A DNA stretch of 50,106 nucleotides from positions 1 to 50,106 of the IMG/VR virus record IMGVR_UViG_3300027754_000138. The stretch is one strand, 5' to 3'. Positions within the stretch are counted from its first letter, which is position 1. Every line of letters starts with the position of its first letter. The DNA comes from a virus. This document shows positions 21,273-49,426 of this stretch, in pieces. The notes under the pieces were generated by a model, which searched no databases, had not been told where the DNA came from, and saw nothing but the letters and a program-made list of their open reading frames with translations. Position numbers and translations under genes: made by a program.

Positions 21273-21292
21273 AATTTAAAAACTACCAATAA

Positions 21293-21326
21293 ATAGGCTC
21301 TTTGATATTTATATTAAAGAGCCTAT
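21293..21326 (+). promoter_or_regulatory. 11-bp hairpin with late promoter motif in its loop
   Basis: Perfect inverted repeat ATAGGCTCTTT (21293-21303) and AAAGAGCCTAT (21316-21326) around a 12-base loop containing GATATTTATA (21304-21313). The stem has four G-C pairs in a very AT-rich region. It can act on read-through RNA as a terminator or translation block, while transcripts started from the loop would lack the left arm. The ATG of the next gene is at 21336. Confidence 0.75.
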
Positions 21327-21335
21327 CTACGATAT

Positions 21336-23603: not shown

Positions 23604-24008
23604 ATGGCAAGAAGAAATCCTTACAGTAAAAAAGCAGTAGCGGCCTTATATGGCTTTCGCAGTGGCTTAGAAATGCAAATTGACGAATCACTTAAAAATC
23701 AAGGCATAGACGGAGAATATGAAAAACATATTATTGATTATGTTAAACCAGAATCTAAACACAAATATCATCCTGACTTCAAATTACCTAATGGTATTTT
23801 TGTAGAAACTAAAGGAAGGTTTTTAACAGACGATCGAAAAAAGCATATTTTAATTAAAGCTCAATATCCCGAATTAGACATTCGCTTTTTATTTCAAAAT
23901 TCAAAAACAAAAATTAGTAAAACATCTAAAACAACTTATGCAGATTGGTGTGTTAAACATGGGTTTAAATTTGCAGATAAAACAATACCTACAGAATGGC
24001 TTAAATAA
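23604..24008 (+). CDS. T7-type endonuclease I (Holliday junction resolvase)
   Basis: A 134-residue PDDEXK nuclease. Candidate catalytic residues Glu23, Asp58, Glu68 and Lys70 (in SGLEMQ, YHPDFKL, FVETKGRF) have exactly the spacing of T7 endonuclease I (Glu20, Asp55, Glu65, Lys67). It resolves branched DNA, needed before packaging of replicated concatemers, and does the job that endonuclease VII (gp49) does in T4. It starts the replication/recombination island; the start is preceded by AAAGTT and there is no late promoter motif before it. Confidence 0.9.
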   Translation: MARRNPYSKKAVAALYGFRSGLEMQIDESLKNQGIDGEYEKHIIDYVKPESKHKYHPDFKLPNGIFVETKGRFLTDDRKKHILIKAQYPELDIRFLFQNSKTKISKTSKTTYADWCVKHGFKFADKTIPTEWLK

Positions 24009-24047
24009 TATTTGTTTTATTGAAATAAATATACTATATTAGTCTTA

Positions 24048-24995
24048 ATGATATCTACTAAACTAACTCAACTAATAGAATCTGTATTAGGTAGAGGCAA
24101 AACTACAAATAAAGGTAATATCGCTCACCATTGTCCATTTTGTCAATCTTCTAGAAAAAAACTAGAAGTTCAATCTAATACCAATGATAAAGGTGAAAAC
24201 CCATGGCACTGTTGGATTTGTAACAAATCAGGTAAAAAGTTAGCTACACTATTTAAAGCATTAAACGTAAGCCGTGATAAATTAACGGAGCTATACAGTA
24301 TACTTAACATCCAGCCTAAATATAACTCTAAACAGAACGGCAGTTTACATTTAAATACGACTGTACTCGACCTGCCTAAAGAGTTTATTGCACTATACAA
24401 TACTTCAGACTCTATAGAATATCGAAATGCTATACATTATTTACAAACTAAAAGAAAAGTATCACTTTCAGAAATAGTAAAATACAATATTGGATATTGT
24501 GAAACTGGAGAATACGCTAAAAAAATTATAATTCCTTCCTATGATGACTCTGGAAAATTAAATTATTTCGTAGGAAGAGCTTATTACAATGCAGAATCAT
24601 TTAAACATAAAAATCCAGATACATCTAAAAATTGTGTTGGATTTGAATTGTTTATTAATTGGAGTTTACCTATAGTATTAGTTGAAGGAGCTTTTGATGC
24701 AATTGCAGTTCGACGTAATTCTATTCCATTATTTGGAAAAACAATATCAGAAGATTTACGTAAAAAAATAATAGAAAATAAAGTTATTAAATTATATATT
24801 TGTCTAGATAAAGACGCACAAAAACAAGCTTTGGAACACGCAGAATACTTTATGAATAATGGAGTTGAAGTTTATTTTGTTGATTTACAAGAAAAAGATC
24901 CGGCAGAAATTGGATTTAAAAAAATGTGTCAATTAATTAAAGCAACAACTCCTTTAACGTTTTCAAAGTTTATGGAATACAAATTATTTGCATAA
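24048..24995 (+). CDS. 61-like: DNA primase (zinc finger plus TOPRIM)
   Basis: A 315-residue DnaG-type primase. The zinc-binding site is Cys29-x2-Cys32 and Cys55-x2-Cys58 (HHCPFC and HCWIC). The TOPRIM part has the invariant Glu213-Gly214 with Asp217 in VLVEGAFDAIA, and the metal-binding pair in CLDKDAQ (Asp254, Asp256). It makes RNA primers for lagging-strand synthesis. No helicase domain is attached and no replicative helicase lies in the window. Its stop overlaps the start of the recombination nuclease by one base (TAATG). Confidence 0.88.
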   Translation: MISTKLTQLIESVLGRGKTTNKGNIAHHCPFCQSSRKKLEVQSNTNDKGENPWHCWICNKSGKKLATLFKALNVSRDKLTELYSILNIQPKYNSKQNGSLHLNTTVLDLPKEFIALYNTSDSIEYRNAIHYLQTKRKVSLSEIVKYNIGYCETGEYAKKIIIPSYDDSGKLNYFVGRAYYNAESFKHKNPDTSKNCVGFELFINWSLPIVLVEGAFDAIAVRRNSIPLFGKTISEDLRKKIIENKVIKLYICLDKDAQKQALEHAEYFMNNGVEVYFVDLQEKDPAEIGFKKMCQLIKATTPLTFSKFMEYKLFA

Positions 24996-27900
24996 TGAAA
25001 AAAATAGAAATAGGATTAAATAAAATTGATAAAATATATCACATTGCTGATATACATATAAGAAATCTTAAGCGGCATCAAGAATATAAAACAGTATTTG
25101 AAAGAACTGCTGAAGTTGTTAAAAAAACTTTAGGTCCTAATGATATTATCTTTTTAGGTGGAGATATTGTGCATGCTAAAACTGATATGACTCCAGAGTT
25201 AATTCAATCAGTGCAAGAATTCTTTAAAATGTTTGCAGATATTGCACCTACAATTTTAATTACAGGTAATCACGACTGCAACTTAAACAACGTTTCTAGA
25301 TTAGACGCATTAACTCCTATTGTTAACGCACTTAATCATCCAAATCTTCATTATCTCAAAGAGTCCGGGGTATATCATATATCCGATAAACACTTTGTAG
25401 TTATGTCTGTTTTTGACAAACCTAAAGATTTCATCAAAGCAAATAGTTTCAAAGGAGATTTTAAAATTGCATTACATCACGGAGCTGTAAATAATGCAAT
25501 GACTGATATTGGATTTAGACTACAAAATGATCATGTAAACATTGATACGTTTGATGGTTATAAATTAACTTTATTAGGTGATATACATAAACCAGCACAA
25601 TATTTAAATCAGGAAAAGACAATAGCATATTGTGGTTCATTAGTGCAACAAAATTACGGAGAAGCATTAATTCATGGAATGTTAGTATGGGATACCAATA
25701 CCTGCACTTCAGAATTTATAGAAATACCTAATGACATTTGTTACTATACTTTGGAAATTGAAAATGGAAATTACAATCCAATATCTTCTATAATATCTAA
25801 TAAAACAATACGTCTTCGAGTTAAAGTTAAAAATACTGAATCTGCGGATTTAAAGAAAATTATAGCAGAAATAAAATCACAGCATAATATTGAAGAATAC
25901 ACTATTCAAAAAATTAATGACTTTACTCAAAACCAAGATAAGTCACAAAAAATTAACATTGGAGATGTTCGAGATGTTGAATATCAAAATGAGCTTATTT
26001 CAAAATATTTAGAAAATAAATTTGCGTTAGACGATGAAATGCTTGACGGTATTCGTCATGTTAATCGAACTGTAAATTCTGGATTACCGACATTGGAAAT
26101 TTCTCGTAATGTATCATGGACTCCTAAAAAGTTTGAGTTTTCAAATATGTTTAGTTATGGTATAGATAATGTAATTGACTTTTCAAATATGAAAGGAGTA
26201 TTTGGAATATTTGCTCCAAACGCTTCAGGTAAATCTACAATGTTAGATTCAATTACATATTGTATATTTGATAAATGTTCTAGAACATCAAAAGCATCTA
26301 GCGTATTAAATAATAAATCTAATTCATTTAAATGTAAATTTAATTTTGAATTGGATAATAAAAATTATTTCATTGAAAAAATAGGAACTAAAGGAAGAGG
26401 TGAGCATGTTCGTGTTGATGTAGATTTTTATTCCATAGATGATTTAGGAAATAAAGAATCATTAAATGGAAAAGAGCGTAGTGAAACTAATGATCACATT
26501 AGAAATTTAGTAGGCACGTATGAAGATTTTGTACTAACAGCATTGTCAGTGCAAAATAATAATACTGGATTTATTGACATGGCTCAAAAAGATCGTAAAG
26601 ATTTGTTAGCACAATTTTTAGATATTAATATATTTGAAGATTTATATAGCATTGCTGGAAATGATATTAAGGAAGTAGCTACGTTAGTTAAAGAATATCA
26701 AAAGCAAGATTTTGCAACACAACTGTCAGACGCGTTAATTGATATTGACACATATTCTAAACAACATAAAAGTTATTTAATAGATAAGGAAGAATTAAAT
26801 ACTAAAATTACAAATATTAATACAGAAATTTTAAAATTAACTTCAGACTTAGTTCCAGTTGATTCTTCAATTGAAAATATTTTTGAATTAGAAACTTTAG
26901 TAACTAAATGCAATGCTTTATTAAATCAAATTAATACTCAGTTAACCGAAAATAATGTTTCATTGACAAACGCTATTGATGTAATATTATTAATTGAAAT
27001 GTCATTAAACGATTATAACATTGTAGAGATAAAAGAACGTATAACTATTTACAATGAATTAAAAAATTCTGAATTGATATTTTATGGTCAAATAGAAAAA
27101 CAAAAGGCAGAAATTCGCATTAAAGAAGATAAAATGTCCAAGCTTAATGATCTTAAGTATGATGAGAATTGTTTATTTTGTATGGATAATATTTTTGTAA
27201 AAGATGCTATTACTACAAAATCTTTAATACAAAATGATAAAGAAAACTTAATATCTTTAAATACTAAACTGCAAGAAATAATTGATAAAATGACAAAGTT
27301 ATCAATAGCAGTTCATGAACAAGAAACATATTATGATTTTCAAAAGAAATTAACTCAAGCTAATACTAATAAAAATAGCATTGAATCTGTAATTAATGAT
27401 TTAAAAACTAAACGAGGTCTAGCAGAAACTAAATTACTAGAAACTCAAAGAAAAGTCAATGAGTATTATACTAAAGAAGCTGTAATTAAAAACAATAAAG
27501 AAATTAAAACTTCTATATTGCTATTAAATACTACAATGGATAATTTTAAAAATGAATTAAATGATGTAAATGATTTAATTTTAACTTGCTATTCTAATTT
27601 ATTAGTAGCACAAAAAGATAAAGAAAAAGCCGAAGATTCCATTGACAAATTAAAAAATTTAACAAAGCAATATAAATTTTATGAATATTATTTAATAGCA
27701 GTTAATCGAGATGGCATACCATATGATTTAATTACAATGGCAGTACCGCATATCGAACAAGAGATAAATAATATATTAACTCAATTAGTAGATTTTAGTA
27801 TAATGCTAGAAATGGATGGTAAAAACATTAATTGTTACATTGTATATGATCAAGATAATTTTTGGGCTATTGAATTAACTTCAGGTATGGAAAAATTCAT

Positions 27901-28153
27901 ATCGTCATTAGCTATTAGAACTGCTTTAATAAACATATCATCGCTGCCTAGACCTAATTTTCTAGCTATTGATGAAGGATTTGGAGTTTTAGATTCTAAT
28001 AATTTAAATTCCATGTTTAATTTATTTGAGTATCTTAAAACTCAATTTTCTTTTATGTTAGTAATATCACATATCGATTCCATGAAAGATGTAGTTGATA
28101 AATTAATTGAAATTACTAAAATCAATGGAAATTCTAAGATCTATTACATTTAG
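24995..28153 (+). CDS. 47-46: Fused Mre11-Rad50-type recombination nuclease (gp47-gp46 in one chain)
   Basis: A 1052-residue uninterrupted chain. Residues 1-~250 are a calcineurin-like phosphoesterase (gp47/SbcD): Asp19-x-His21, GGD at 55-57, GNHD at 91-94, His161-His162 and GDIH at 195-198. From ~375 a Rad50/SbcC ATPase (gp46) follows: Walker A GIFAPNASGKST (404-415), Q-loop region (LSVQNN), two coiled-coil arms with a zinc hook Cys726-x2-Cys729, signature SGMEKF (963-968) and Walker B FLAIDEG (989-995). T4 and most relatives encode these as two genes. The complex resects DNA ends for recombination-dependent replication. Confidence 0.92.
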   Translation: MKKIEIGLNKIDKIYHIADIHIRNLKRHQEYKTVFERTAEVVKKTLGPNDIIFLGGDIVHAKTDMTPELIQSVQEFFKMFADIAPTILITGNHDCNLNNVSRLDALTPIVNALNHPNLHYLKESGVYHISDKHFVVMSVFDKPKDFIKANSFKGDFKIALHHGAVNNAMTDIGFRLQNDHVNIDTFDGYKLTLLGDIHKPAQYLNQEKTIAYCGSLVQQNYGEALIHGMLVWDTNTCTSEFIEIPNDICYYTLEIENGNYNPISSIISNKTIRLRVKVKNTESADLKKIIAEIKSQHNIEEYTIQKINDFTQNQDKSQKINIGDVRDVEYQNELISKYLENKFALDDEMLDGIRHVNRTVNSGLPTLEISRNVSWTPKKFEFSNMFSYGIDNVIDFSNMKGVFGIFAPNASGKSTMLDSITYCIFDKCSRTSKASSVLNNKSNSFKCKFNFELDNKNYFIEKIGTKGRGEHVRVDVDFYSIDDLGNKESLNGKERSETNDHIRNLVGTYEDFVLTALSVQNNNTGFIDMAQKDRKDLLAQFLDINIFEDLYSIAGNDIKEVATLVKEYQKQDFATQLSDALIDIDTYSKQHKSYLIDKEELNTKITNINTEILKLTSDLVPVDSSIENIFELETLVTKCNALLNQINTQLTENNVSLTNAIDVILLIEMSLNDYNIVEIKERITIYNELKNSELIFYGQIEKQKAEIRIKEDKMSKLNDLKYDENCLFCMDNIFVKDAITTKSLIQNDKENLISLNTKLQEIIDKMTKLSIAVHEQETYYDFQKKLTQANTNKNSIESVINDLKTKRGLAETKLLETQRKVNEYYTKEAVIKNNKEIKTSILLLNTTMDNFKNELNDVNDLILTCYSNLLVAQKDKEKAEDSIDKLKNLTKQYKFYEYYLIAVNRDGIPYDLITMAVPHIEQEINNILTQLVDFSIMLEMDGKNINCYIVYDQDNFWAIELTSGMEKFISSLAIRTALINISSLPRPNFLAIDEGFGVLDSNNLNSMFNLFEYLKTQFSFMLVISHIDSMKDVVDKLIEITKINGNSKIYYI

Positions 28154-28186
28154 ATATTTATATTTATATAAGTATCCTAATGTAAT
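28143..28186 (+). promoter_or_regulatory. 8-bp inverted repeat framing a late promoter motif
   Basis: ATTACATT (28143-28150) and AATGTAAT (28179-28186) frame GATATTTATA (28153-28162). The left arm lies in the last codons of the nuclease gene, and the right arm ends 2 bases before the ATG at 28189, so read-through RNA could mask that start. Confidence 0.6.
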
Positions 28187-28188
28187 TT

Positions 28189-30432
28189 ATGGCTAAAAAA
28201 GAACCAATATATCGAGGGCTTGCTGAATTAACAGTACAAATTGAAGATGTTAGTAGTGCTTCTCCTAATTATTTTAAAATAGTTAATTTACCAACTGAAT
28301 TTACTGCTGGCCAAAATATATTTAAATTTCGAGGTAATCCTAGCTTATTTAACGAAAATTCAATAGTATATGTAGAAATTTTAGATTCTAATAACGAGCC
28401 TATATATCATGAAGTTGAATTAGATGAAGAGTCTGATCCTAAAGCTGCAGTAGTTGTCGTATACATTAATCAAGACACTGCTCCGGGGCCCGCAAAAATA
28501 ATTCTTTGTACCACTGCGTATAAAGACATTAATAACAATGCATTAGATACTTCAAAAATTAATGTACGATGGACTGGAGCTGTATATATAGATGTTTCAA
28601 GAATTAATCCTGCAGAAATTGTTTTTAGTAAATTACCAACTATTAACATTACTAATTCAACAGGGTCGTATGTTAATTATGGATACGCTTTAGGAGAAAG
28701 AGTAGTATCACAATCAGTAACTGGGTTGCGATATATATTTAGTGGAAAAACACCAGTACTTATTACTGGTTCAAATTGCACAATTGGATTTACTACTAGC
28801 TCTTTATATGCCAGTGTCGATATACCATTTACTTCAGGATCAAGCTATTATCCAAGTATACCTGGAACTGTAGCTACTTTATTTCCATCTCAATCCACTC
28901 AAATATATAAATCAAATATAGTTGGATTCAATGGCAAAGGCATAGCGTATTTACAAACGCCTATGACATTTGAATTGGTTAATGACAATACTTTATATAG
29001 ACCTAGCTCTGTAAATATAATCACTGCATCAATTAATTATACACAACAAAATTCTTCAGGAGCCGCAACTGAAAATACATATAATTTTGCTACTGTATTT
29101 TTTTCAGGACTGACACCACAAATTGGCATTGTTGCTAAAATACGATCATATTATAAATCTACAGGTATAGGCGAATATATACTTTCAAATGAAACTGACA
29201 TATTAGATCAGTCTACAGAATTAGGATTTACTGTAGATGTAGTAACAGCTTCTTTTGCACTTCCAACAATACAAAGAAATGATCGAATAGATTTCAAATT
29301 TGAATTTGTTAATCCTATAGGACTTGTTTCAAAGCAGTATGTAGAATCTTTAAATAATTTATATTTAGGTGGAAATACATACATTGGAGGAGATGATAAT
29401 TTACTAACAGGTTCGTTATTTGTAGCAGGAGCAACTGGTACTGGAGTTGAAATAACTGGTAAAGGATCTTCTGCTATGGTTAGATCTATAGGATATCAAG
29501 GATTTCAAAATGCAATTACATATGGAGGTCAATATTCTGGATTTGTAATTTATTCTGGATCTGTGCAAGCTATTTTAGGAGCGGCAGAATCATATTCAGG
29601 AGTAGGTTTAGAGCTAGTAGCTAATTCTTCTTCATATTTCAAATACGCCACTGCTAATGGCGGAGTGCTTGATGTTAAAACAAACTCATTCTTTTTAGGA
29701 AATTCGTCTTCATATATAGCGTCATTAAACGCATCAATGTCAATATATTCAAGCAATTTTACCTTAACACCTAAAGGTGATGTAACTGCATCTGCTATTT
29801 TAGTAACAAAAAATCCTGTTGGGTCCAATCCACAAATAATGATTGACACTAATAATGGTATTTTAGACGCTACAAATTTAGGTAGAACTATATATAGCAG
29901 TGCAACAGAATATGTATATGGACCTGATGCGACTGCTCGAGCAAATACATATTACTGGAGTGGGTCAAACATTGAAATTCCATTTCAAGGATTGAAAAAT
30001 GAATTTCGATATACAATTTACTTTCAACAACAATTAACGACTGATACTAGTGACAGTGATTTTGCTCGATCTGGGCTGCGCGCAAGATTGTATGCTATAA
30101 ATTCCGGATCTAATGCATATGACACTTGGTCTTTAATTAGCACTAAAGCTGTAACACCTTTAGAAATAAATTCTGTAGCAACATCTTCAAATGCTATACA
30201 TTCTGAAGATTATTTAGAATCTACTAGAAGAATTGACGTGTCAGGATCTTTAAATGCATATAACGGTAAAATGTTAAAATTCGTAATTGATTTTTCATTG
30301 TTTAATTTTAGCGCCGGTACCTACTCAGCAGTAACAGCTAAATATAAACACATTAATATAATCGGGTCTCGTGGTTTAATAGCAGCGCGAGCTGGATTTG
30401 ATACAGTAATTAATAGCCCACCAACAGCATAA
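28189..30432 (+). CDS. Fibre-like virion structural protein
   Basis: A 747-residue beta-rich protein. The N-terminal ~150 residues (YRGLAELTVQIEDVSSASPN, VYVEILDSNNEPIYHEVE) form a conserved head domain seen in structural proteins of T4-like marine phages, probably for attachment to the virion. The rest is Gly/Ser/Thr/Asn-rich with repeated short strands. It contains no recognised enzymatic motif. It lies apart from the main tail block, after the recombination nuclease, and has its own promoter motif. A long tail fibre part or whisker-like role is likely but unproven. Confidence 0.65.
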   Translation: MAKKEPIYRGLAELTVQIEDVSSASPNYFKIVNLPTEFTAGQNIFKFRGNPSLFNENSIVYVEILDSNNEPIYHEVELDEESDPKAAVVVVYINQDTAPGPAKIILCTTAYKDINNNALDTSKINVRWTGAVYIDVSRINPAEIVFSKLPTINITNSTGSYVNYGYALGERVVSQSVTGLRYIFSGKTPVLITGSNCTIGFTTSSLYASVDIPFTSGSSYYPSIPGTVATLFPSQSTQIYKSNIVGFNGKGIAYLQTPMTFELVNDNTLYRPSSVNIITASINYTQQNSSGAATENTYNFATVFFSGLTPQIGIVAKIRSYYKSTGIGEYILSNETDILDQSTELGFTVDVVTASFALPTIQRNDRIDFKFEFVNPIGLVSKQYVESLNNLYLGGNTYIGGDDNLLTGSLFVAGATGTGVEITGKGSSAMVRSIGYQGFQNAITYGGQYSGFVIYSGSVQAILGAAESYSGVGLELVANSSSYFKYATANGGVLDVKTNSFFLGNSSSYIASLNASMSIYSSNFTLTPKGDVTASAILVTKNPVGSNPQIMIDTNNGILDATNLGRTIYSSATEYVYGPDATARANTYYWSGSNIEIPFQGLKNEFRYTIYFQQQLTTDTSDSDFARSGLRARLYAINSGSNAYDTWSLISTKAVTPLEINSVATSSNAIHSEDYLESTRRIDVSGSLNAYNGKMLKFVIDFSLFNFSAGTYSAVTAKYKHINIIGSRGLIAARAGFDTVINSPPTA

Positions 30433-34190: not shown

Positions 34191-34214
34191 ATGATAAAAT
34201 GATAAAATGATAAA
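34191..34214 (+). repeat. Triple ATGATAAA octanucleotide at a gene start
   Basis: Three tandem copies of ATGATAAA. The first two ATGs open 3-codon frames (Met-Ile-Lys-stop), each stop overlapping the next ATG as ATGA; only the third (34207) continues into the gene. Confidence 0.9.
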
Positions 34215-36561
34215 ATTAAAAACGTTAATACTTGAAGCTGATACTGCAACTATTGCAGCAAATCTTAAAAAAGCTTATATGGCCGGACCAGCAGCAATGC
34301 GTGCATATTTAGACGGGCCAGAAGGTTCTTCTGAAGAAGCTAGAGCTTTATTACAAAAGCAAGCTGCTGATAATGACGGAGATGCTGCAGATGATAAAAT
34401 CACTATAGGTAAAGGCAGTGGCGCTGCAATGGGCTTTCAGCCAACTCAAAATCAAATTGATTTAATGCAGTCAATGTCTTATCCATTAGGTTCAACCAAA
34501 ACATTTTTACAAGCTATAGACAACCCAACAGCTGCAGGTATTGTTACTTCAGGTAAATTAATTATTGATGGTCATCATCGATGGTCTGGAATGATAGGCA
34601 TTGGCGGAGACGCTGCTCAAGTAGATAGTACGGACATTCAATGGCCAGGAAAAAATACCAATCAAATTCTTGCAGCAGCTCAATTAACAATAGCAGCTAA
34701 ATTAGGTGGTACTCAAAAAACTCCATCTCAAAGTGCAGAATTTAATACAAATATTTTAGGGGAGCCCGCAGATAAAATTACTAAAATGATAATGGCTAAT
34801 CTAGGAAAACGAACAGACAAAAACGCTCCTGGTCCATTGCTTAACAGACGAATGTGTTATGAGATTCTTAAAGATGCAAGTATACTTGCAAAAATTAATA
34901 AATGGTCTGGAGGCTCTGTGCAACCACTAAAAGAAATTAGTTTAAAACAAAAAAAAGCTGGTGAGAAAGCAGTAGATGAATTAAGATTATCAATTGCACA
35001 AAAAGTAGCAGAAAATTTAGCAGCACTACCAAAAAATGACAATGCTCCCGCTCGCGCAGATATGCCTCAATTTGATGATAAAGTCGGTGGGCCGAAACCA
35101 GATACAGTCAAAAGTCCTTTAGAAGCTGGAGAATTTAATGTAACTCCACCTTTTGCAAAAGAATCTATTCAAAATAAAAAAACAATATTAACTAAAAATA
35201 CAATGAAACAAAAATTAAAAATTTCAATTGCGGATCAAATAGCAACATTAAAAATGAAGCGTACTGCAAGAATTATTTCAGAATCGGAATATCAAAAACA
35301 AATTTATTTATTAGAAGCGGGTCCTAATACATTATCTACTTCTGAACCAATGGGTTTAGCAATTCTAGGAGCGCCGGCTGGCGGAAAAAGTTATACAATG
35401 AATAAAATAGCTGATTTAGCAGATGACCCTAGAATTTCATCAACTACAAAAAGCGGGCAAGATCTTACCGTAGATAAATTGCGAGCTGAATTTCAAAGTA
35501 AAACTGCTAAAGATCAATTAACAGGATTTGTACACGCATTTTATTTATTTAAAGAAAAAGCTAAACAAAATCCAGAACAATTTGCAAAATGGTTTGAAGA
35601 TATTAGCAAAATGTGGACCACTACATTAGCAAAATCATTACCAGAGCTTAAAATTACTGTTAGTAATGATAAATTAATGTTTGACGGCAAAGATTCTATA
35701 GATAATTTAGATATGTTAGATAAATTAGACGCTGAAGCTACGATTTCAAAATTAGATTCATATAATGATTATAAGCGTGTTGTAAGATATTTTCAATCTG
35801 TAAAACAAGCAGATGCTATTGATAAACAATTAAATATGTCTTATGACGAAGCTGGAGATGATCCAGGAAAAATTGTTGCTAATATGGATACATTACATAA
35901 AAAACAATATGTTACAGATGTTTTTTTAATTCATCCAACAAATATAGCTACTAATTTAATACAAAATTTTTATAGAGTTGTAATGGGAAATGACGGAGGT
36001 CGAGATTCTAGTGGCGCTATTATAACAGCATTTAATGATATTGAAAAATCAAAAAACATATATGCTGATAATGCTGAGGAAGTTATAGATGTAACTTCCA
36101 AGAATTTAAGTTCGGTTTCTAAAACATTAAAAAATGCAACAGTTGTTGATGATGCTGAAAATGGTGATAAACCTATAGATGTATTTGTAACTGTAGCTCC
36201 AATGGAGCCAGAAGAAGCATTTACGACATTTATAGGTAAATTAGATGATGAACAAAAAATAGTATTTAAAGCTTTATTAAAATATAGTGTTAAAGCATTG
36301 CAAGGTGTTCCAGCAAATGCTGTTAGTGTTATAAATAATTTAACTAGCAATCTTAAAGATTCTGAAGCTTTAGATATTTTAAAAAAAGCGGCTGCTGGTG
36401 AATTAAAAAACGTTTACCAACATGCACATGGAGGCGTTACAGACAAATTAGTTGCAAAAGCTACTACATTATTTAAAGAATCTAAAAATCGTATATTGAA
36501 TGATTTAGAAACAATACTTCAAGAATCTATTGCAACTTGGAAAAAGAATCGTCGTAAGTAA
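34207..36561 (+). CDS. ParB-like / P-loop kinase fusion, putative internal head protein
   Basis: A 784-residue protein with the leader MIKLKTLILEA. The N-terminal half holds a ParB/sulfiredoxin-type motif (IIDGHHRW, residues 119-126, with flanking GKL strand), and the C-terminal half a P-loop (GAPAGGKSYT, 388-397) of the zeta-toxin/polynucleotide-kinase type. Between them lies YLLEAG (366-372), matching the (L/I)xE|A form of gp21 cleavage sites, so the chain could be cut into two enzymes in the prohead. Its neighbours with the same leader support packaging with the DNA. Possible targets include host nucleotides, peptidoglycan precursors or proteins; none can be read from the sequence. It starts in the unusual octamer repeat. 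Confidence 0.65.
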   Translation: MIKLKTLILEADTATIAANLKKAYMAGPAAMRAYLDGPEGSSEEARALLQKQAADNDGDAADDKITIGKGSGAAMGFQPTQNQIDLMQSMSYPLGSTKTFLQAIDNPTAAGIVTSGKLIIDGHHRWSGMIGIGGDAAQVDSTDIQWPGKNTNQILAAAQLTIAAKLGGTQKTPSQSAEFNTNILGEPADKITKMIMANLGKRTDKNAPGPLLNRRMCYEILKDASILAKINKWSGGSVQPLKEISLKQKKAGEKAVDELRLSIAQKVAENLAALPKNDNAPARADMPQFDDKVGGPKPDTVKSPLEAGEFNVTPPFAKESIQNKKTILTKNTMKQKLKISIADQIATLKMKRTARIISESEYQKQIYLLEAGPNTLSTSEPMGLAILGAPAGGKSYTMNKIADLADDPRISSTTKSGQDLTVDKLRAEFQSKTAKDQLTGFVHAFYLFKEKAKQNPEQFAKWFEDISKMWTTTLAKSLPELKITVSNDKLMFDGKDSIDNLDMLDKLDAEATISKLDSYNDYKRVVRYFQSVKQADAIDKQLNMSYDEAGDDPGKIVANMDTLHKKQYVTDVFLIHPTNIATNLIQNFYRVVMGNDGGRDSSGAIITAFNDIEKSKNIYADNAEEVIDVTSKNLSSVSKTLKNATVVDDAENGDKPIDVFVTVAPMEPEEAFTTFIGKLDDEQKIVFKALLKYSVKALQGVPANAVSVINNLTSNLKDSEALDILKKAAAGELKNVYQHAHGGVTDKLVAKATTLFKESKNRILNDLETILQESIATWKKNRRK

Positions 36562-36563
36562 CA

Positions 36564-37097
36564 ATGATTAAGCTAGTAGATTTATTAAAAGAAATATCTG
36601 AAGATTCCTATCGCTTAAGTAATGAAATAATTGAAGTGCGTACTGCAATTCAAAAATTCTTTAATGATAATAAAATTACTTTAAAAGCGTTTGTAGATGA
36701 AAATAATTGGAATAATTACTATAATATGGCTATAAAAGATTTTCCAAATTTTAAATCTAGTGATATTGTTCAAGCAATGGGTAATCAAGCGCAAGGAGAA
36801 AATTGGTATATTAAATTACCAATTCCAGTATTAAATATGAATACAGGCCCTGCAAATAAACCATTTTTAAACATTGACATTAACAGTGATGTTTTAGAAA
36901 TTAACGCTGCTGTAGACGATTGGGTTAAAAAAAATAAAAAGCAATTAACTAAATTAGCTGACGAAAATAACTATAAAATGTTTTATCAATTAGCAAAAGA
37001 TAAATTTCCAAAAGCACAAGAAGATAAATTAGTATATGCAGTTAATATAGCCGCAATTACTTACGATATACATTATGAAATTTCAACCGAAAATTAA
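36564..37097 (+). CDS. Putative internal head protein with two repeat modules
   Basis: A 177-residue protein with leader MIKLVDLLKEISE. It consists mainly of two copies of a ~57-residue helical module (about 24-82 and 112-168), with the shared pattern NK-x2-L-x2-L-AD-x2-x-W/Y-x-x-F/Y-Y-x-LA and A-x-x-N-x-A near the end; a third copy is in the protein at 33519. The gene lies 2 bases after the ParB/kinase gene, and its TAA stop is followed directly by the next ATG. Function unknown; packaging into the head is inferred from the leader. Confidence 0.65.
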   Translation: MIKLVDLLKEISEDSYRLSNEIIEVRTAIQKFFNDNKITLKAFVDENNWNNYYNMAIKDFPNFKSSDIVQAMGNQAQGENWYIKLPIPVLNMNTGPANKPFLNIDINSDVLEINAAVDDWVKKNKKQLTKLADENNYKMFYQLAKDKFPKAQEDKLVYAVNIAAITYDIHYEISTEN

Positions 37098-37883
37098 ATG
37101 ATTAAGTTAGTAGATTTATTAAAAGAAGCGGAAGGAGAAACTCCTAAATGTCCAATAGCGACTCAAAATATCGAAGTCAATCTTGAACATCGTCAAAAAG
37201 CAATTGACGAATATGGATATGGTCCTTTAAATCCTAACAATCCAAATATTAAATTTTGGAAAGCAAAAGCGTCTGAGTGGCAATTAGATTCCATGGAAGA
37301 AGCTAAGTCATCTAGATGTAATAATTGCGCCGCTTTTAATATAACTTCTAGAATGCTTAATTGTATTGAAAAAGGAATTACATCAGGAGAAGTTGAAGTT
37401 CCAATAGCTAAAAAATCAGTTTCTACCGAAAACACATCTATTAATGAATTTCTTACTAAAGATTTAAACAATTTAAAATCAGCAATAAAAAAATTCAAAA
37501 TTAAAGTTACCGATTCGAAAATAATTAAAAATATAGAATCTATCATAGCAGCTCAGGTAATAGATCCATATGCTAATATTAAAACTGTTGTAGATCAAAT
37601 ACGTGATTATTTTAAAACTATTAATGGCCCAAAAAGCTATGATGAATATTTACAACAAACATTTGATCAAGCTCTTTATAATAGCAATTTAAAAAAATTA
37701 GCTGAAGGTGATGACGTAATTGTAGAACCAGAAACAGATGATACGGAAGGAGCTGCAAAAGACGCTTGGGATACTATTGAAGCTGGAAAATTAGGATATT
37801 GCACATTTCTTAAATTTAAATGTGCCGGATCTAGAACTTGCAATTCATGGGTAGTAGGCGGTCCTATTAAAGATAAAAAATAA
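37098..37883 (+). CDS. Cys-rich putative internal head protein, HiPIP-like pattern
   Basis: A 261-residue protein with leader MIKLVDLLKEAEG, almost identical to that of the preceding gene. Seven cysteines lie at 18, 74, 77, 89, 235, 242 and 248. The segments SRCNNCAAF (72-80) and GYCTFLKFKCAGSRTCNSWV (233-252) resemble the cluster-binding order of high-potential iron-sulfur proteins (CxxCxxF ... C ... CxxW), here split by a ~125-residue polar insert. The N-terminal segment QKAIDEYGYGPLNP is also conserved in marine phage proteins as far as I recall. Metal binding is plausible, not demonstrated. Confidence 0.65.
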   Translation: MIKLVDLLKEAEGETPKCPIATQNIEVNLEHRQKAIDEYGYGPLNPNNPNIKFWKAKASEWQLDSMEEAKSSRCNNCAAFNITSRMLNCIEKGITSGEVEVPIAKKSVSTENTSINEFLTKDLNNLKSAIKKFKIKVTDSKIIKNIESIIAAQVIDPYANIKTVVDQIRDYFKTINGPKSYDEYLQQTFDQALYNSNLKKLAEGDDVIVEPETDDTEGAAKDAWDTIEAGKLGYCTFLKFKCAGSRTCNSWVVGGPIKDKK

Positions 37884-37895
37884 AATGTAAAAGTT

Positions 37896-38141
37896 ATGCC
37901 ATTAGTAAAAACATTATTAGAAGCAAAAATATTATTAGCATTTCAAACAGCACAGACAGCAGTAGATGCTAGTTCTGCTCAAAGAAATCTAGCAAATGAT
38001 TTAGCTACTGCAATTGATGAATATATTAAAACTGCAACTATTATAACTCCTCCGGGACAAGCAATTTCAGGAGCAGGAGGCGGACCGGCGCCAGTAGTTG
38101 GATCGACAGTAACCCCTTCGAGCCCAGCTATTATTACTTAA
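37896..38141 (+). CDS. Small hypothetical protein with Gly/Pro-rich tail
   Basis: An 81-residue protein. The N-terminus MPLVKTLLEAK again has an LLE-A sequence. Residues ~15-50 are helical (LANDLATAIDEYIKTATI), and the last ~30 residues are Gly/Pro/Ala-rich. The start is in the AAAGTT-ATG context. Its stop codon lies in the left arm of the hairpin at 38139. No family is recognised; it is not an obvious small terminase. Confidence 0.6.
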   Translation: MPLVKTLLEAKILLAFQTAQTAVDASSAQRNLANDLATAIDEYIKTATIITPPGQAISGAGGGPAPVVGSTVTPSSPAIIT

Positions 38142-38182
38142 CATTACTAGCTTTATATTTATATAATATAAAAGTAATGTTA
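38139..38182 (+). promoter_or_regulatory. Long hairpin holding a late promoter motif and the next start codon
   Basis: TAACATTACT (38139-38148) pairs perfectly with AGTAATGTTA (38173-38182); inside, TTTATATT (38152-38159) pairs with AATATAAA (38165-38172). The promoter-like TATATTTATA (38154-38163) sits in the inner part. The right arm contains the ATG of the next gene (38177-38179), and the left arm contains the stop of the previous gene. In read-through RNA the start would be buried; RNA started inside would lack the left arm. Confidence 0.75.
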
Positions 38183-38524
38183 CAAATAAATAAACTTTCA
38201 AGTATATTATTAATCGTAATTGCAGTTTTAATTGCAATCATAATTATTACTTCAAATAATTCAAATGAAATAGATAAATATGCAGTACAAAAAATTAAAA
38301 TTGACAGTTTATCAAAAATTATCAATGTATTAGAACAAGATCAACTTAAATACGATAATACCATTGCAGTTTATAGAGATAGTTTATCTTTAATGGATTC
38401 ACAAATTGACTCAACAAAAAACAAAATAAAAAAAATACAAAATGATTACGGTAAAAAAATTAAAATTATTAGTAGTGCTAATCACGATGAGCTTAGCGAC
38501 TTTTTCACAAACAGGTACAAATAA
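38177..38524 (+). CDS. Membrane-anchored coiled-coil protein, possible inner-membrane spanin
   Basis: A 115-residue protein with one N-terminal membrane helix (residues ~7-27, Leu/Ile-rich) and then a periplasmic-type coiled coil ending LSDFFTNRYK. This is the layout of Rz-type i-spanins, which link to an outer-membrane partner to fuse the membranes at lysis. The last 83 bases overlap the start of the next gene in a different frame, as Rz and Rz1 do. Its start codon is inside the hairpin at 38139-38182, which would delay translation to late times. The spanin call is inference from architecture. Confidence 0.6.
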   Translation: MLQINKLSSILLIVIAVLIAIIIITSNNSNEIDKYAVQKIKIDSLSKIINVLEQDQLKYDNTIAVYRDSLSLMDSQIDSTKNKIKKIQNDYGKKIKIISSANHDELSDFFTNRYK

Positions 38525-38861
38525 AAAAGTTCATTGTTTTCCAGACAGCGTTGCAAAACAAATTGCAATTGATTTAATAAAAGGCGATTCTGCAAAAGTA
38601 GAATTAGCTAAGACTAACATACTAGTAAATCAATTAGAAGAAAAAACTAAAACAAACGATAGATTGGTTACAATGTACGTTAACAAAGTATCTAACTATG
38701 CATCGCAAATTGAGTTGTATAGAAAAAAAGAAACTGAGTATCATACCATAGTATTTGGTTTGGAAAAAGATGTTGTTAAAGCAAAAAAAGCAAACAAGTA
38801 TTTTAGAATAGCAGTATCAGGATTAATCGTAACTACTGTACTAGGATTTACAATACGTTAA
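38442..38861 (+). CDS. Signal-peptide protein overlapping the spanin-like gene
   Basis: A 139-residue protein. Residues 1-22 form a signal peptide (VKKLKLLVVLITMSLATFSQ), with the FSQ ending typical of Bacteroidota. A helical coil follows (about 45-118), and then a C-terminal hydrophobic helix (FRIAVSGLIVTTVLGF, ~121-136). It begins inside the preceding gene in another frame (83-base overlap). Together they may form a lysis pair, but the C-terminal membrane helix and lack of a lipobox Cys differ from a classical o-spanin lipoprotein. It lies 11 bases before the terminase gene. Confidence 0.6.
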   Translation: MITVKKLKLLVVLITMSLATFSQTGTNKKVHCFPDSVAKQIAIDLIKGDSAKVELAKTNILVNQLEEKTKTNDRLVTMYVNKVSNYASQIELYRKKETEYHTIVFGLEKDVVKAKKANKYFRIAVSGLIVTTVLGFTIR

Positions 38862-38872
38862 TAGTTTAGGTT

Positions 38873-40480
38873 ATGGAAGCAAAGTCATTAAAAGAAATAA
38901 TCAAAGAAGAGTACAAGAAATGTTTAATAGATCCTGTCCACTTCATGAAAAGATTTTGTCAAATTCAACATCCACAAAAAGGAAAAATTCCATTTCATTT
39001 ATATCCGTTTCAAGAGGAGGCCTTAAGAGACCTACGAGATCATGATTATAACGTCATATTAAAATCAAGGCAATTAGGTATATCGACTCTAAGCGCCGGC
39101 TATGCTCTTTGGCTTATGACGTTTTTTGGGGATAAAAATATTCTAGTTATCGCTACTAAACAAGAAGTAGCAAAAAATTTAGTTTTAAAGGTAAAAGTCA
39201 TGTATGAAAATTTACCATCATGGCTAAAACTACCAGCATCAGAAGATAATAAATTATCATTACGTCTTAATAACGGTTCTCAAATTAAAGCAACTTCATC
39301 GTCAGGAGACTCTGGACGTTCAGAAGCATTGTCTTTGCTAATAATAGATGAAGCTGCGTTTATTTCCAATGTAGAAGAAATTTGGATATCATCACAACAA
39401 ACTTTAGCAACAGGAGGAGGAGCAATTATATTATCAACTCCTAATGGCACCGGTAACTTTTTTCATAAAACTTGGGCAAATGCTGAAAATGGTGTTATTA
39501 ATGAAAGTACTAAATCAGTTAAATTTAATCCAATTAAACTTCGTTGGGATGTACATCCTGACAGAGATCAAAATTGGAGAGATAGACAAGATGAATTGTT
39601 AGGAGCAAAAGGCGCTGCACAAGAATGTGATTGTGACTTTATCACTTCAGGTCATTCCGTAATTGAAGGACCACTTTTAAAATGGTATGAAGAAACTCAC
39701 GTTAAACCTCCTATAGAAACTCGTGGTCCAGAATCTGGATTATGGATTTGGGAATTACCTGATTATACTAAAAACTACATTGTAGTAGCTGACGTGGCTC
39801 GTGGAGATGGAGCTGACTACTCAGCATTTCATGTTATTGACGTTGAATCCATTTCACAAATAGCAGAATTCAAAGGACATATATCTACTAAAGATTATGG
39901 AAACATGTTAGTAAACATTGCTACAGAATACAATGACGCTTTGTTAGTAATTGAAAATGCTAATGTTGGTTGGGCATCTATTCAAGTAGCAATAGACAGA
40001 GGCTATAAAAATTTATATTATTCTCCTAAAGACAATTCTGTATCAGACGTATCACAGCAATTAGCTAGATATGTTGATTTAAAAGATACTTCACAAATGA
40101 CTCCTGGATTTACTACATCATCTCGAACTCGTCCTTTAGTAATTTCAAAATTAGACACTTACATGAGAGAGCGACTTCCTATAATACGCAGTAAACGATT
40201 AATAGAAGAACTGCAAGTATTTATTTGGAACGGCTCGCGACCAGAAGCACAACGTGGTTATAACGATGATTTAGTAATGGCATTTTCTATTGCATTATGG
40301 ATGCGAGATACCGCATTGAAACTTCGTCAACAAGGAATGGATTTAAACAGAAAAACTTTAGATTATTTTGGTATGGGAAGAGGTGCATATAATAATACAG
40401 CTGGCAATTTAAAAAATGCTGGATGGTCTATGACTACTGGAAAACCGGGAGAAGACCAAGATTTAACATGGTTATTGTAA
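38873..40480 (+). CDS. 17: Terminase large subunit, gp17-like
   Basis: A 535-residue packaging motor protein. The ATPase half has a deviant Walker A (LKSRQLGIST, 63-72: Ile replaces the usual Lys before Ser-Thr, and Lys64 probably takes its role) and Walker B LLIIDE (155-160). The nuclease half has the RNase H-type acidic residues: Asp307 in VADVARGDGADYS, Glu361 in VIENANVGW and Asp465/466 in GYNDDLVMAF. It cuts and pumps concatemeric DNA into the prohead. The small terminase is not identified in the window. In T4 sheath and tube follow; here the portal follows directly. Confidence 0.92.
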   Translation: MEAKSLKEIIKEEYKKCLIDPVHFMKRFCQIQHPQKGKIPFHLYPFQEEALRDLRDHDYNVILKSRQLGISTLSAGYALWLMTFFGDKNILVIATKQEVAKNLVLKVKVMYENLPSWLKLPASEDNKLSLRLNNGSQIKATSSSGDSGRSEALSLLIIDEAAFISNVEEIWISSQQTLATGGGAIILSTPNGTGNFFHKTWANAENGVINESTKSVKFNPIKLRWDVHPDRDQNWRDRQDELLGAKGAAQECDCDFITSGHSVIEGPLLKWYEETHVKPPIETRGPESGLWIWELPDYTKNYIVVADVARGDGADYSAFHVIDVESISQIAEFKGHISTKDYGNMLVNIATEYNDALLVIENANVGWASIQVAIDRGYKNLYYSPKDNSVSDVSQQLARYVDLKDTSQMTPGFTTSSRTRPLVISKLDTYMRERLPIIRSKRLIEELQVFIWNGSRPEAQRGYNDDLVMAFSIALWMRDTALKLRQQGMDLNRKTLDYFGMGRGAYNNTAGNLKNAGWSMTTGKPGEDQDLTWLL

Positions 40481-40493
40481 AATAGTCTTGGTT

Positions 40494-40528
40494 ATTAGGG
40501 TTTTAGATATTTATTTAAAATAGCTAAT
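40494..40528 (+). promoter_or_regulatory. Inverted repeat whose loop is a late promoter motif
   Basis: TTTTA (40501-40505) and TAAAA (40516-40520) enclose exactly GATATTTATT (40506-40515); an outer pair ATTAG (40494-40498) / CTAAT (40524-40528) extends the stem past a small internal loop. The ATG of the portal gene is at 40534. Confidence 0.55.
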
Positions 40529-40533
40529 TAAAT

Positions 40534-42405
40534 ATGGCAGATAAAACATTATACGGACGATTAAAACGTTTATTCAATAACAATGTTATAGTTCGTAAAG
40601 TTGGTAAAAACCAACTAAAAGTAGTTGATAGTGATCATTTACAATCTTTAGGAAATCCACACAACTCTAAATTTATTGATCGATATACTCGACTTCACGG
40701 AGTTCGACCTAATTCAGCAAATACTTACAATCCAAATTACAATTATTTTTCTTCAAAAGTTGAATTATATACAGATTATGAAGTAATGGATCAAGATTCT
40801 ATTATTGCATCTGCATTGGATATTTACGCAGACGAAACTGTTATGAAAGACGATTTCGGTGATGTATTAAGAATTACCAGTGATAATGATAATGTTAAGA
40901 AAATTCTTTATAATTTATTTTATGATGTTTTAAATATAGAATTTAATCTTTGGCCATGGGTTAGAAATATGTGTAAATATGGAGATTTCTATTTACACTT
41001 AGATATTCAAGAAGAAATTGGAATTGTAAACGTTACTCCATTATCAGCTTATGAAATTATTCGTGAAGAAGGAATGTCAATAGAAAATCCATATCACGTT
41101 GAGTTTAAACAATTAGGTGGAGGAAATATATCATATCAAAATTTTGAAGTAGCTCATTTTCGTTTATTAAATGATTCTAATTTTTTACCATATGGAAAAT
41201 CAATGGTTGAAGGAGGTAGAAAAGTTTGGAAACAATTAACGTTAATGGAAGACGCGATGTTAATTCATCGTATAATGAGAGCACCTGAAAAACGTATATT
41301 TAAAATAGACGTAGGAAATATTCCTCCTAATGAAGTTGATAATTACATGCAACGTATTATTAACCAAATGAAAAAAACTCCTTATGTTGATCCACAAACT
41401 GGTGACTATAATTTAAAATTTAATATGCAAAACATGTTAGAAGATTATTTTTTACCTGTAAGGGGTGGTCAATCAGGAACTGAAATTGACACGCTGTCTG
41501 GTATGGAATTTACCGGTATAGAAGATATTGAATATCTTCGTAATAAAATGATGGCCGCATTAAAAGTTCCTAAAGCATTTTTAGGATACGACGAAGCTAT
41601 TACAGGCAAAGCTACGCTAGCAGCTGAAGATGTACGATTTGCTAGAACCATTGAAAGAATTCAAAGGATTGTAATTTCAGAACTTCATAAAATAGCAATA
41701 GTACATTTATTCGCGCAAGGATTTACCAATGAAGATTTAGTTAGTTTTGAATTATCAATGACATCGCCTTCGACAATTTATGAACAAGAAAAATTAACTT
41801 TATATGCTAGTAAAGTTGATTTAGCAGGATCAATGATAGAAAAGAAATTAATTTCCAGAGAATGGATTTATAAAAATATATTTAATTTTACTGAAGATGA
41901 ATCTAAAGATATTACTAAAGAGCTTGTTAAAAATCATCAAGAAGCATTTAGATTTAAGAAAATTGAAGAAGAAGGCAAAGACCCGGCTGATCCTAAAAAT
42001 CAAGAGCCAGAGAAAAAAGAAGGAGAAGGAGAAGAAGGCGGAGAAGAAGCTGCTGCAAACCCATTTGGAGAAAGTAAAGATCCAAATTTAGAAGAATCTG
42101 AAATAAATTTAGACCTTCAAAAAAAATACGATAAAGAAGCGGATAGTAAAGCTAAATCAGAACGCACACCGAAAGGTGGGTGGCCTGGAGCTGGTCGTCC
42201 TAAAGAAGGAATAAAATATAATACTCACGAACATCCTAGAGGATATGATCCTATAGGTAAAGTAGCTTGGAAAAATTCTAGAAATGAATCAGCTATGGAT
42301 ACTATTAAAAAATACGGATTAAGTAAATTAATAGTCAAATCGCCGAAAATATTAACAGAATCAAATTCTAGTATGCTAAACGAATCAAATATTATACCAG
42401 AATAA
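40534..42405 (+). CDS. 20: Portal vertex protein, gp20-like
   Basis: A 623-residue portal. The conserved N-terminal part includes FIDRYTRLHGVRP, YTDYEVMDQDSIIASALDIY and DDFGDVLRI, and the middle part includes PLSAYEIIREEG, GGQSGTEIDTLSGMEFTGIE and KAFLGYDEA, all typical of T4-type gp20. The portal forms the dodecameric ring through which DNA is packaged. After residue ~470 a long tail follows, with an acidic Glu-rich stretch, a WPGAGRPKEG segment and an end containing ILTES and MLNES, which look like gp21 cleavage sites. This tail may be trimmed at maturation. Confidence 0.92.
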   Translation: MADKTLYGRLKRLFNNNVIVRKVGKNQLKVVDSDHLQSLGNPHNSKFIDRYTRLHGVRPNSANTYNPNYNYFSSKVELYTDYEVMDQDSIIASALDIYADETVMKDDFGDVLRITSDNDNVKKILYNLFYDVLNIEFNLWPWVRNMCKYGDFYLHLDIQEEIGIVNVTPLSAYEIIREEGMSIENPYHVEFKQLGGGNISYQNFEVAHFRLLNDSNFLPYGKSMVEGGRKVWKQLTLMEDAMLIHRIMRAPEKRIFKIDVGNIPPNEVDNYMQRIINQMKKTPYVDPQTGDYNLKFNMQNMLEDYFLPVRGGQSGTEIDTLSGMEFTGIEDIEYLRNKMMAALKVPKAFLGYDEAITGKATLAAEDVRFARTIERIQRIVISELHKIAIVHLFAQGFTNEDLVSFELSMTSPSTIYEQEKLTLYASKVDLAGSMIEKKLISREWIYKNIFNFTEDESKDITKELVKNHQEAFRFKKIEEEGKDPADPKNQEPEKKEGEGEEGGEEAAANPFGESKDPNLEESEINLDLQKKYDKEADSKAKSERTPKGGWPGAGRPKEGIKYNTHEHPRGYDPIGKVAWKNSRNESAMDTIKKYGLSKLIVKSPKILTESNSSMLNESNIIPE

Positions 42406-42415
42406 AATTAAAAGA

Positions 42416-42440
42416 TTACTATCTCCATATTTATTAGTAA
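42416..42440 (+). promoter_or_regulatory. Short inverted repeat around late promoter motif CATATTTATT
   Basis: TTACTA (42416-42421) and TAGTAA (42435-42440) flank CATATTTATT (42426-42435). It lies 22-26 bases upstream of the ATG at 42462, at the start of the prohead core gene cluster. Confidence 0.5.
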
Positions 42441-42461
42441 AGAAAATAAAAGCCTTTCTGA

Positions 42462-43307
42462 ATGAAAAATTTAAAGCACTCAAAATTTAAAAACACCGGA
42501 GTATTATTCGAATTACTTGTACGTCAAGTAACGTCAGATACTTTAAACAATAGCGATTCAAAGGCAATACCACTTATTAAAAAGTATTTTGCTAAGTCTA
42601 CAGAATTAGCTAAAGAATTTAATTTGTATCAAACTTTAATTAAAGAAAAATTTACAAAGGAAGAAAAAGCTAATCACTTAATTGAAGCTGTATTACTAGC
42701 TAAATCTCAATTAAATCAAGCCGCTCTTAACAGACAGAAATATAATTTAATTAAAGAAATTAAAAATAATTACGTATTAGAAGATTTTTTTAAATCTAAA
42801 GTTAATAATTACAAGGCATTAGCTGCAATTTATAAAATGTTTGAATATACCATTGCAGATCATCCAACAGAATCAGTTAATAATAGATATACAATTGTTG
42901 AGCATATAATTCGTAAAGACGTTGCTAAATCTGCTGTTAAGAATGAAATGTCTGAATTTATAAAACAAGACAAAGACGTTCGTTTATTGTCTTATAAAAT
43001 TTTAGTTGATAAATTCAATGAAAAATATTACGATTTAAATGAAGGACAGAAATCTATATTAAGAAATTATATCAATGCCGTTTCAGAAGGAACAGAATTA
43101 AAATCTTTTATTGTTAATGAAGTTAATAAACTTCAAACTTCTTTAAAAACATTAACTTCTAAAGTTGATGATAAAGTTGTTAAAATTAAATTAACAGAAG
43201 TAACTAATTTATTAAATGAAATTTCAGTAGCTAAATCAATTAAAGATACTCATATATTAAGTTTATTACGTTACCACGAATTAATTAAAGAACTTAAAAA
43301 AGTATAA
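42462..43307 (+). CDS. Helical protein between portal and protease, probable prohead core protein
   Basis: A 281-residue, Lys/Glu-rich helical protein beginning with the conserved-looking segment FKNTGVLFELLVRQVTSDTL, which I recall from marine T4-like phages at the same place. T4 has the prohead core genes 67 and 68 here, between 20 and 21, but sequence similarity to those is not evident. Its position behind a late promoter motif and within the head block supports a core or scaffold role. Confidence 0.65.
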   Translation: MKNLKHSKFKNTGVLFELLVRQVTSDTLNNSDSKAIPLIKKYFAKSTELAKEFNLYQTLIKEKFTKEEKANHLIEAVLLAKSQLNQAALNRQKYNLIKEIKNNYVLEDFFKSKVNNYKALAAIYKMFEYTIADHPTESVNNRYTIVEHIIRKDVAKSAVKNEMSEFIKQDKDVRLLSYKILVDKFNEKYYDLNEGQKSILRNYINAVSEGTELKSFIVNEVNKLQTSLKTLTSKVDDKVVKIKLTEVTNLLNEISVAKSIKDTHILSLLRYHELIKELKKV

Positions 43308-49328: not shown

Positions 49329-49351
49329 TCTGAGTAATATTTTATAAGTTT

Positions 49352-49379
49352 GAAAAGGAGTTAGTAATAGCTCCTTTTC
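49352..49379 (+). terminator. Hairpin terminator after the major capsid gene
   Basis: GAAAAGGAG (49352-49360) pairs with CTCCTTTTC (49371-49379), 9 bp plus an optional T-G and T-A pair, loop of 6-10 bases. The T-rich right arm is followed by TACTG, so the U tract is short. It separates capsid from the downstream genes. Confidence 0.65.
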
Positions 49380-49384
49380 TACTG

Positions 49385-49426
49385 ATTAAAATAAAAAGTA
49401 GATATTTATTAGAAATATATTTTAAT
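49385..49426 (+). promoter_or_regulatory. 9-bp inverted repeat around a late promoter motif, ending at a start codon
   Basis: ATTAAAATA (49385-49393) and TATTTTAAT (49418-49426) enclose GATATTTATT (49401-49410). The right arm abuts the ATG at 49427. Read-through RNA from the capsid gene could therefore hide this start, while RNA begun at ~49416 could not form the stem. Confidence 0.65.

Follow-up and report, generated by a model that had tools for sequence, protein, structure and literature searches.

The window, the whole stretch of 50,106 bases that was analysed, is an uncultured phage record whose terminase is nearest, among named phages, to those of Flavobacterium phage immuto (57%) and Microcystis phage Mel-JY01 (55%). 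It carries a T4-like gene set, including portal, prohead protease, major head protein and baseplate genes, and none of 32 gene starts examined in it has a Shine-Dalgarno (SD)-like motif, which together with the immuto match suggests a host in the Bacteroidota. Two distinct genes of this one phage (1672-2325 and 43847-44452) match head maturation protease profiles (phrog_94 and phrog_207), and three adjacent proteins encoded at 34207-37883 begin with MIKL..L[IL].E, a start which we take to be similar to the capsid-targeting leader of T4 internal proteins. The locus under study follows directly and contains these features:

37896-38141, plus strand: gene for an 81-aa protein of the MPL[IV]K family, with homologs at 76 IMG/VR loci; its stop codon TAA (38139-38141) is inside the left arm of a hairpin
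38139-38148, plus strand: outer left arm, TAACATTACT, containing the upstream stop codon (fold and arm-swap test)
38152-38159, plus strand: inner left arm, TTTATATT, overlapping the promoter-like sequence (fold)
38154-38163, plus strand: late-promoter-like TATATTTATA, with the core TATTTAT at 38156-38162 (motif enriched and strand-biased upstream of genes)
38165-38172, plus strand: inner right arm, AATATAAA (fold), with a transcription start predicted from motif spacing at about 38168-38171
38173-38182, plus strand: outer right arm, AGTAATGTTA, containing the ATG at 38177-38179 (fold)
38177-38524, plus strand: putatively controlled gene, 115 aa, spanin-like, with an N-terminal membrane segment and a likely coiled coil, both read by eye
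38442-38861, plus strand: overlapping out-of-frame gene, 139 aa, with a signal peptide-like start, possibly the second member of a lysis pair

Folding of 38100-38220 gives a 10-bp outer stem, a 3-nt bulge, an 8-bp inner stem and a 5-nt loop, which matches to the base the initial annotation, where the promoter was placed in the inner part of a 10-bp plus 8-bp stem, the preceding TAA in the left arm and the next ATG in the right arm. The energy of this hairpin corresponds to z = -2.44, and an equally good fold arose in 1 of 200 dinucleotide shuffles. In the predicted folds of read-through RNA the start-codon region is paired, while in several relatives the ATG is unpaired and lies beside the stem, not within it.

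The product of 38177-38524 is provisionally identified as spanin-like, an assignment that is plausible but weak. Its frame overlaps that of 38442-38861 by 83 nt and it has an N-terminal membrane anchor, as in two-component spanins, and the signal-like segment of 38442-38861 is not directly followed by a lipobox cysteine, the mark of an Rz1-like outer-membrane lipoprotein. Among 15 aligned downstream proteins, Rz-like PHROGs rank with the most frequent matches (phrog_739 in nine, phrog_13 in eight and phrog_214 in five of the 15; best E 0.009). The lysis function suggested in the initial annotation for the controlled gene is tentative, its basis being these weak profile matches and the overlapping-frame pair. 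In the record G001, an 88-aa protein with a single membrane segment (L250:3968-4234, minus strand) has a weak Rz-like match (E 0.04) and a late promoter wrapped in a hairpin of -13 kcal/mol.

Across six phage contigs, the 70-nt regions preceding 228 genes that follow a gap contain TATTTAT 104 times, mostly 10-29 nt from the ATG, and its reverse complement 23 times; the logo of the motif is (G)ATATTTATWWNAAAR (n = 90 sites). The sequence GATATTTAT is biased to the strand of the genes (8:1 in the window, 16:1 in G003 and 7:0 in G004), and in G001, whose genes are on the other strand, the ratio is 2:21. The 10-mer TATATTTATA alone is unremarkable, with four copies in the window against 1.9 expected; it is the longer motif that is special. 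The motif (G)ATATTTATWWNAAA is regarded as a candidate late promoter, because structural genes, among them the portal gene at 40534, lie behind it, and the TATAAATA box of T4 late promoters is absent on the coding strand. Assuming the spacing and geometry of T4 late promoters, transcription would presumably start near 38168-38171, and the position of the motif at 38154-38163 is compatible with a late RNA that, with this predicted start, would lack the left arm. A search with the sigma factor profile PF04542 gave no recognisable late sigma factor in G001, G003 and two named relatives, and one match in G016.

A profile of the upstream 81-aa protein retrieved 76 IMG/VR loci, in 41 of which (25 distinct sequences) TATTTAT lies between the 81-aa gene and the next ORF; the remaining 35 loci lack the promoter, often with no gap or with another next gene, or have no next ORF. 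The layout recurs at this same place, as an enclosing stem of -7 kcal/mol or better is present in 20 of the 25 distinct promoter-bearing sequences, the promoter standing without a strong stem in the other five (L129, L141, L142, L146 and L147), while tested singly the stem is significant in just 14 of the 25 (matched by at most 25 of 500 shuffles). In all 23 stem-bearing leaders the stem has its 3' edge between positions -5 and +9 relative to the ATG, and for 22 of the 23 the ATG region is predicted to be more open in the late than in the read-through RNA, with means over the 23 of 0.60 and 0.39.

The arm sequences vary among relatives, while their pairing is kept. Arm-swap permutations were used for this comparison because a MAFFT alignment of the 23 leaders misplaced the right arms. 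Among 28 distinct leaders, a set that takes in the five stemless ones and three from other loci, arms paired with their own partners gave -10.74 kcal/mol versus -6.99 for crossed arms, and none of 20,000 permutations was as good. For 15 representatives none of 200,000 was as good, and four of 200,000 once the promoter core had been taken out along with 4 nt on either side, while a negative control with the right arm taken from downstream gave 10,186 of 20,000. Two pairs are changed on both sides among five closely related leaders of the spanin site, one of them via U-G, giving a compensatory series U-A/U-G/C-G. The arms thus co-evolve and the hairpin at 38139-38182 is not a chance fold; the compensating changes in relatives that the initial annotation had proposed to look for are present, in the permutations and as compensatory pairs at three sites, two of which are described below.

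The gene behind the hairpin varies, encoding proteins of 114-115, about 206 or 119-120 aa with an N-terminal membrane segment, or a terminase. A hairpin bound to the spanin gene was considered and rejected, as L007-type homologs situated in another operon have neither promoter nor stem, and the stem persists where the terminase large subunit (TerL) follows (L009, L127 and L130). An exact scan of IMG/VR for TACTACC..TATTTAT..GGTAGTA returned 19 stretches, seven at the locus of the 81-aa gene and 12 elsewhere, and only one of those 12 has an ORF directly behind it, so this string also arises by chance. A hairpin of the form TACTACC..TATTTAT..GGTAGTATG precedes a 90-aa ORF at L090:2338-2372, in a 223-kb contig outside the terminase set compared here.

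The same layout is found at other late genes. Over the six phage contigs, an enclosing stem matched by no more than two of 200 shuffles surrounds 12 of 90 promoter sites, where 1.1 would be expected, while the control gave one of 102 promoterless starts. Two further cases are located in the window:

21290-21329, plus strand: late promoter GGCTCTTTGATATTTATATTAAAGAGCC, the second one wrapped in a hairpin, ahead of the LamG-domain gene 21336-23588 (PF13385)
28143-28186, plus strand: third hairpin-wrapped late promoter, ATTACATT..AATGTAAT, before the gene 28189-30432

Orthologs of the LamG gene have the hairpin in G001, G003 and G004, with the same stem in L346, and two pairs are changed on both sides among five sequences of this site. 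The hairpin of gene 28189 is also present in G003 and weaker in G001, G004, G005 and G013, while a scan with the 28189 protein returned only two near-identical fragments, neither containing the gene start. A further G001 gene with a hairpin-wrapped promoter matches homing endonuclease and Vsr profiles; 12 loci of this Vsr-like homing endonuclease were found, and in all 11 that were inspected, several of them near-copies (the twelfth is G001 again), the promoter is inside a stem of -17 to -25 kcal/mol. Two pairs are changed on both sides within one group of these loci, while another group (L355-L358) has an unrelated stem that covers the ATG.

An enclosing stem as a property of all late promoters was rejected, as the mean score over 257 sites in an earlier set of relatives is 13.9 versus 13.7 for shuffles; hairpin-wrapping concerns a minority of genes. 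In Immutovirus (surveyed over 1-100000 and 103973-160366) and Mel-JY01 (surveyed over 771-32363), none of 34 sites reaches the level of two in 200 shuffles, and these named relatives, Immutovirus being cultured, seem to be without the hairpin there. At 49338-49393 in the window, an inverted repeat resembling a terminator lies directly ahead of the promoter of gene 49427 without wrapping this late promoter.

With a probability of about 0.7, we interpret the hairpin at 38139-38182 as a translational lock with its own bypass, of the type known from T4 e, soc and I-TevI, but SD-free and built around a different late promoter, (G)ATATTTATWWNAAA. RNA entering from upstream would fold the hairpin, which would pair the ATG of the spanin-like gene and block the start of translation, while RNA from the internal late promoter would start about 6-9 nt before the ATG, lack the left arm and remain open. 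Expression of the spanin-like gene would then depend on its own late promoter alone, regardless of transcription from upstream, and early or excess lysis protein may thereby be avoided. Such a lock would be more effective here because the starts in the window have no SD-like motif, as in Bacteroidetes. In the accessible part of a Prevotella study, a structure of -5.2 kcal/mol at the start region lowered expression to about one fifth, whereas a hairpin at -21, some 20 nt upstream, caused no such drop (PMC3155529); reduced structure in the region -20 to +20 is described for F. johnsoniae in the part of PMC6847099 available.

Within this translational lock, the purpose might be to separate the gene from an upstream operon that is itself late, adjusting dose and not the early/late switch, a sub-case to which we give somewhat less than an even chance. 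The nearest upstream candidate late promoter lies before gene 30481, and likewise in G001 (74407), so the upstream unit may itself be late and the amount of protein made may be under the control of the lock no less than its timing. Read-through from early or middle transcription is plausible too, as replication-type genes (endonuclease I, primase and SbcCD-like, 23604-28153) are located upstream of the hairpin and 240 of 246 genes of G001 are on one strand.

Three explanations without a translational lock are much less probable. It is unlikely that the hairpin terminates or pauses upstream transcription beside an unrelated promoter: although a T run follows the stem in one homing endonuclease group, none follows it at 38183 or 21330, the stems are AT-rich, a scan of 37000-43000 gave a terminator-like site only at 39812 and no intrinsic terminator (G+C-rich stem plus T run) at 38139-38182, and the constant position beside the ATG would be left unexplained. 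Slightly more doubtful is a palindrome acting at the DNA level, as a site for a dimeric regulator or a cruciform controlling the late promoter. It would agree with the half-site TACTACC common to several relatives and with the ratio of G-U to A-C mismatches in the stems (25 vs 17), by which G-U is not clearly favoured and which does not prove RNA pairing on this strand, but the arm sequences differ between sites of one genome as well as among relatives while pairing is kept, lengths and bulges are variable, and most promoters have no palindrome. Least probable is an RNA-stability or processing element that protects the 3' end of the upstream RNA or is cleaved, for which it speaks that the first base of the hairpin in the window is that of the preceding TAA; the stems of relatives, however, start at variable distances after the stop, yet end near the ATG, and the promoter is inside the stem.

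The translational lock resembles known cases in T4. In T4 e, soc and 49, an inhibitory stem covers the start region in read-through RNA, the late promoter is contained in the DNA of the 5' arm and the short late RNA is open, as far as the accessible text of PMC3014915 goes; this agrees with the layout that the initial annotation had ascribed to these three genes. The lock of T4 lysozyme is the textbook case, described in that text only from T4 and close relatives, and some T4-type phages carry gene e without such a structure (PMC3014915). The likeness to the T4 e leader consists of the start-region stem, the candidate late promoter in the 5' arm and a probable lysis gene behind it, while the present leader differs from those of T4 e, soc and 49 in its promoter, (G)ATATTTATWWNAAA instead of TATAAATA, and in having no SD sequence to hide, and its controlled gene is spanin-like where that of T4 e is a lysozyme; homology of the leaders is not claimed. 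For T4 I-TevI and segB and for Aeh1 mobE, all of them homing endonuclease genes, a late promoter combined with a hairpin that sequesters the ribosome-binding site is reported (PMC2988022). The Vsr-like homing endonuclease described above shares this promoter-in-hairpin arrangement, but belongs to another nuclease family and uses another promoter, and some of its stems are followed by a U run. A partial survey of papers open without subscription (PMC3014915, PMC2988022 and PMC2988021, as far as accessible) yielded for this layout the T4 and Aeh1 cases only.

The suggestion that the T4 strategy has been conserved in a distant relative is supported as regards the different promoter and weaker as regards conservation from T4. 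An origin independent of the T4 leaders is at least as likely as conservation, since T4-type phages bearing e without the structure exist, Immutovirus and Mel-JY01 lack the hairpin in the parts surveyed, and promoter and genes differ.

An endonuclease VII homolog is encoded in G001 (L250:1754-2188, minus strand; PF02945, E 5e-20), with TATTTAT and a weak ATG-covering stem of -7.8 kcal/mol. Endonuclease VII is the family of T4 gene 49, the same gene that bears such a leader in T4, and G001 is a single case: PF02945 was not found in the other 18 records, and the promoter-in-stem layout was not seen at the other endonuclease VII loci among the 11 inspected of 80, two of these 11 being without an ATG, so that the case is given little weight.

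A wider proposal is put forward tentatively, with rather less confidence than the lock itself: uncultured T4-like phages of one clade, with nearly all their genes in one direction, may have independently made the T4 trick into a general SD-free switch, in which hairpin-embedded late promoters protect lysis, homing endonuclease, adhesin-like and further genes from read-through, while at the spanin site the lock would follow the genomic place and not the gene family, being kept when the gene behind it is replaced. The occurrence of co-varying arms in distant phages with another late promoter and no SD sites suggests that early/late gating by a promoter in a hairpin is a recurrent solution in phages with early and late genes of the same orientation. 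The finding may also provide a search pattern, TATTTAT enclosed by an inverted repeat that ends at an ATG, by which genes costly when expressed prematurely could be found in uncultured phages.

The terminase gene of G001 (G001:97627-99668, minus strand) is seemingly interrupted, with a 282-aa TerL start followed by a 392-aa ORF, which, judged by eye, resembles an intein or an intein endonuclease.
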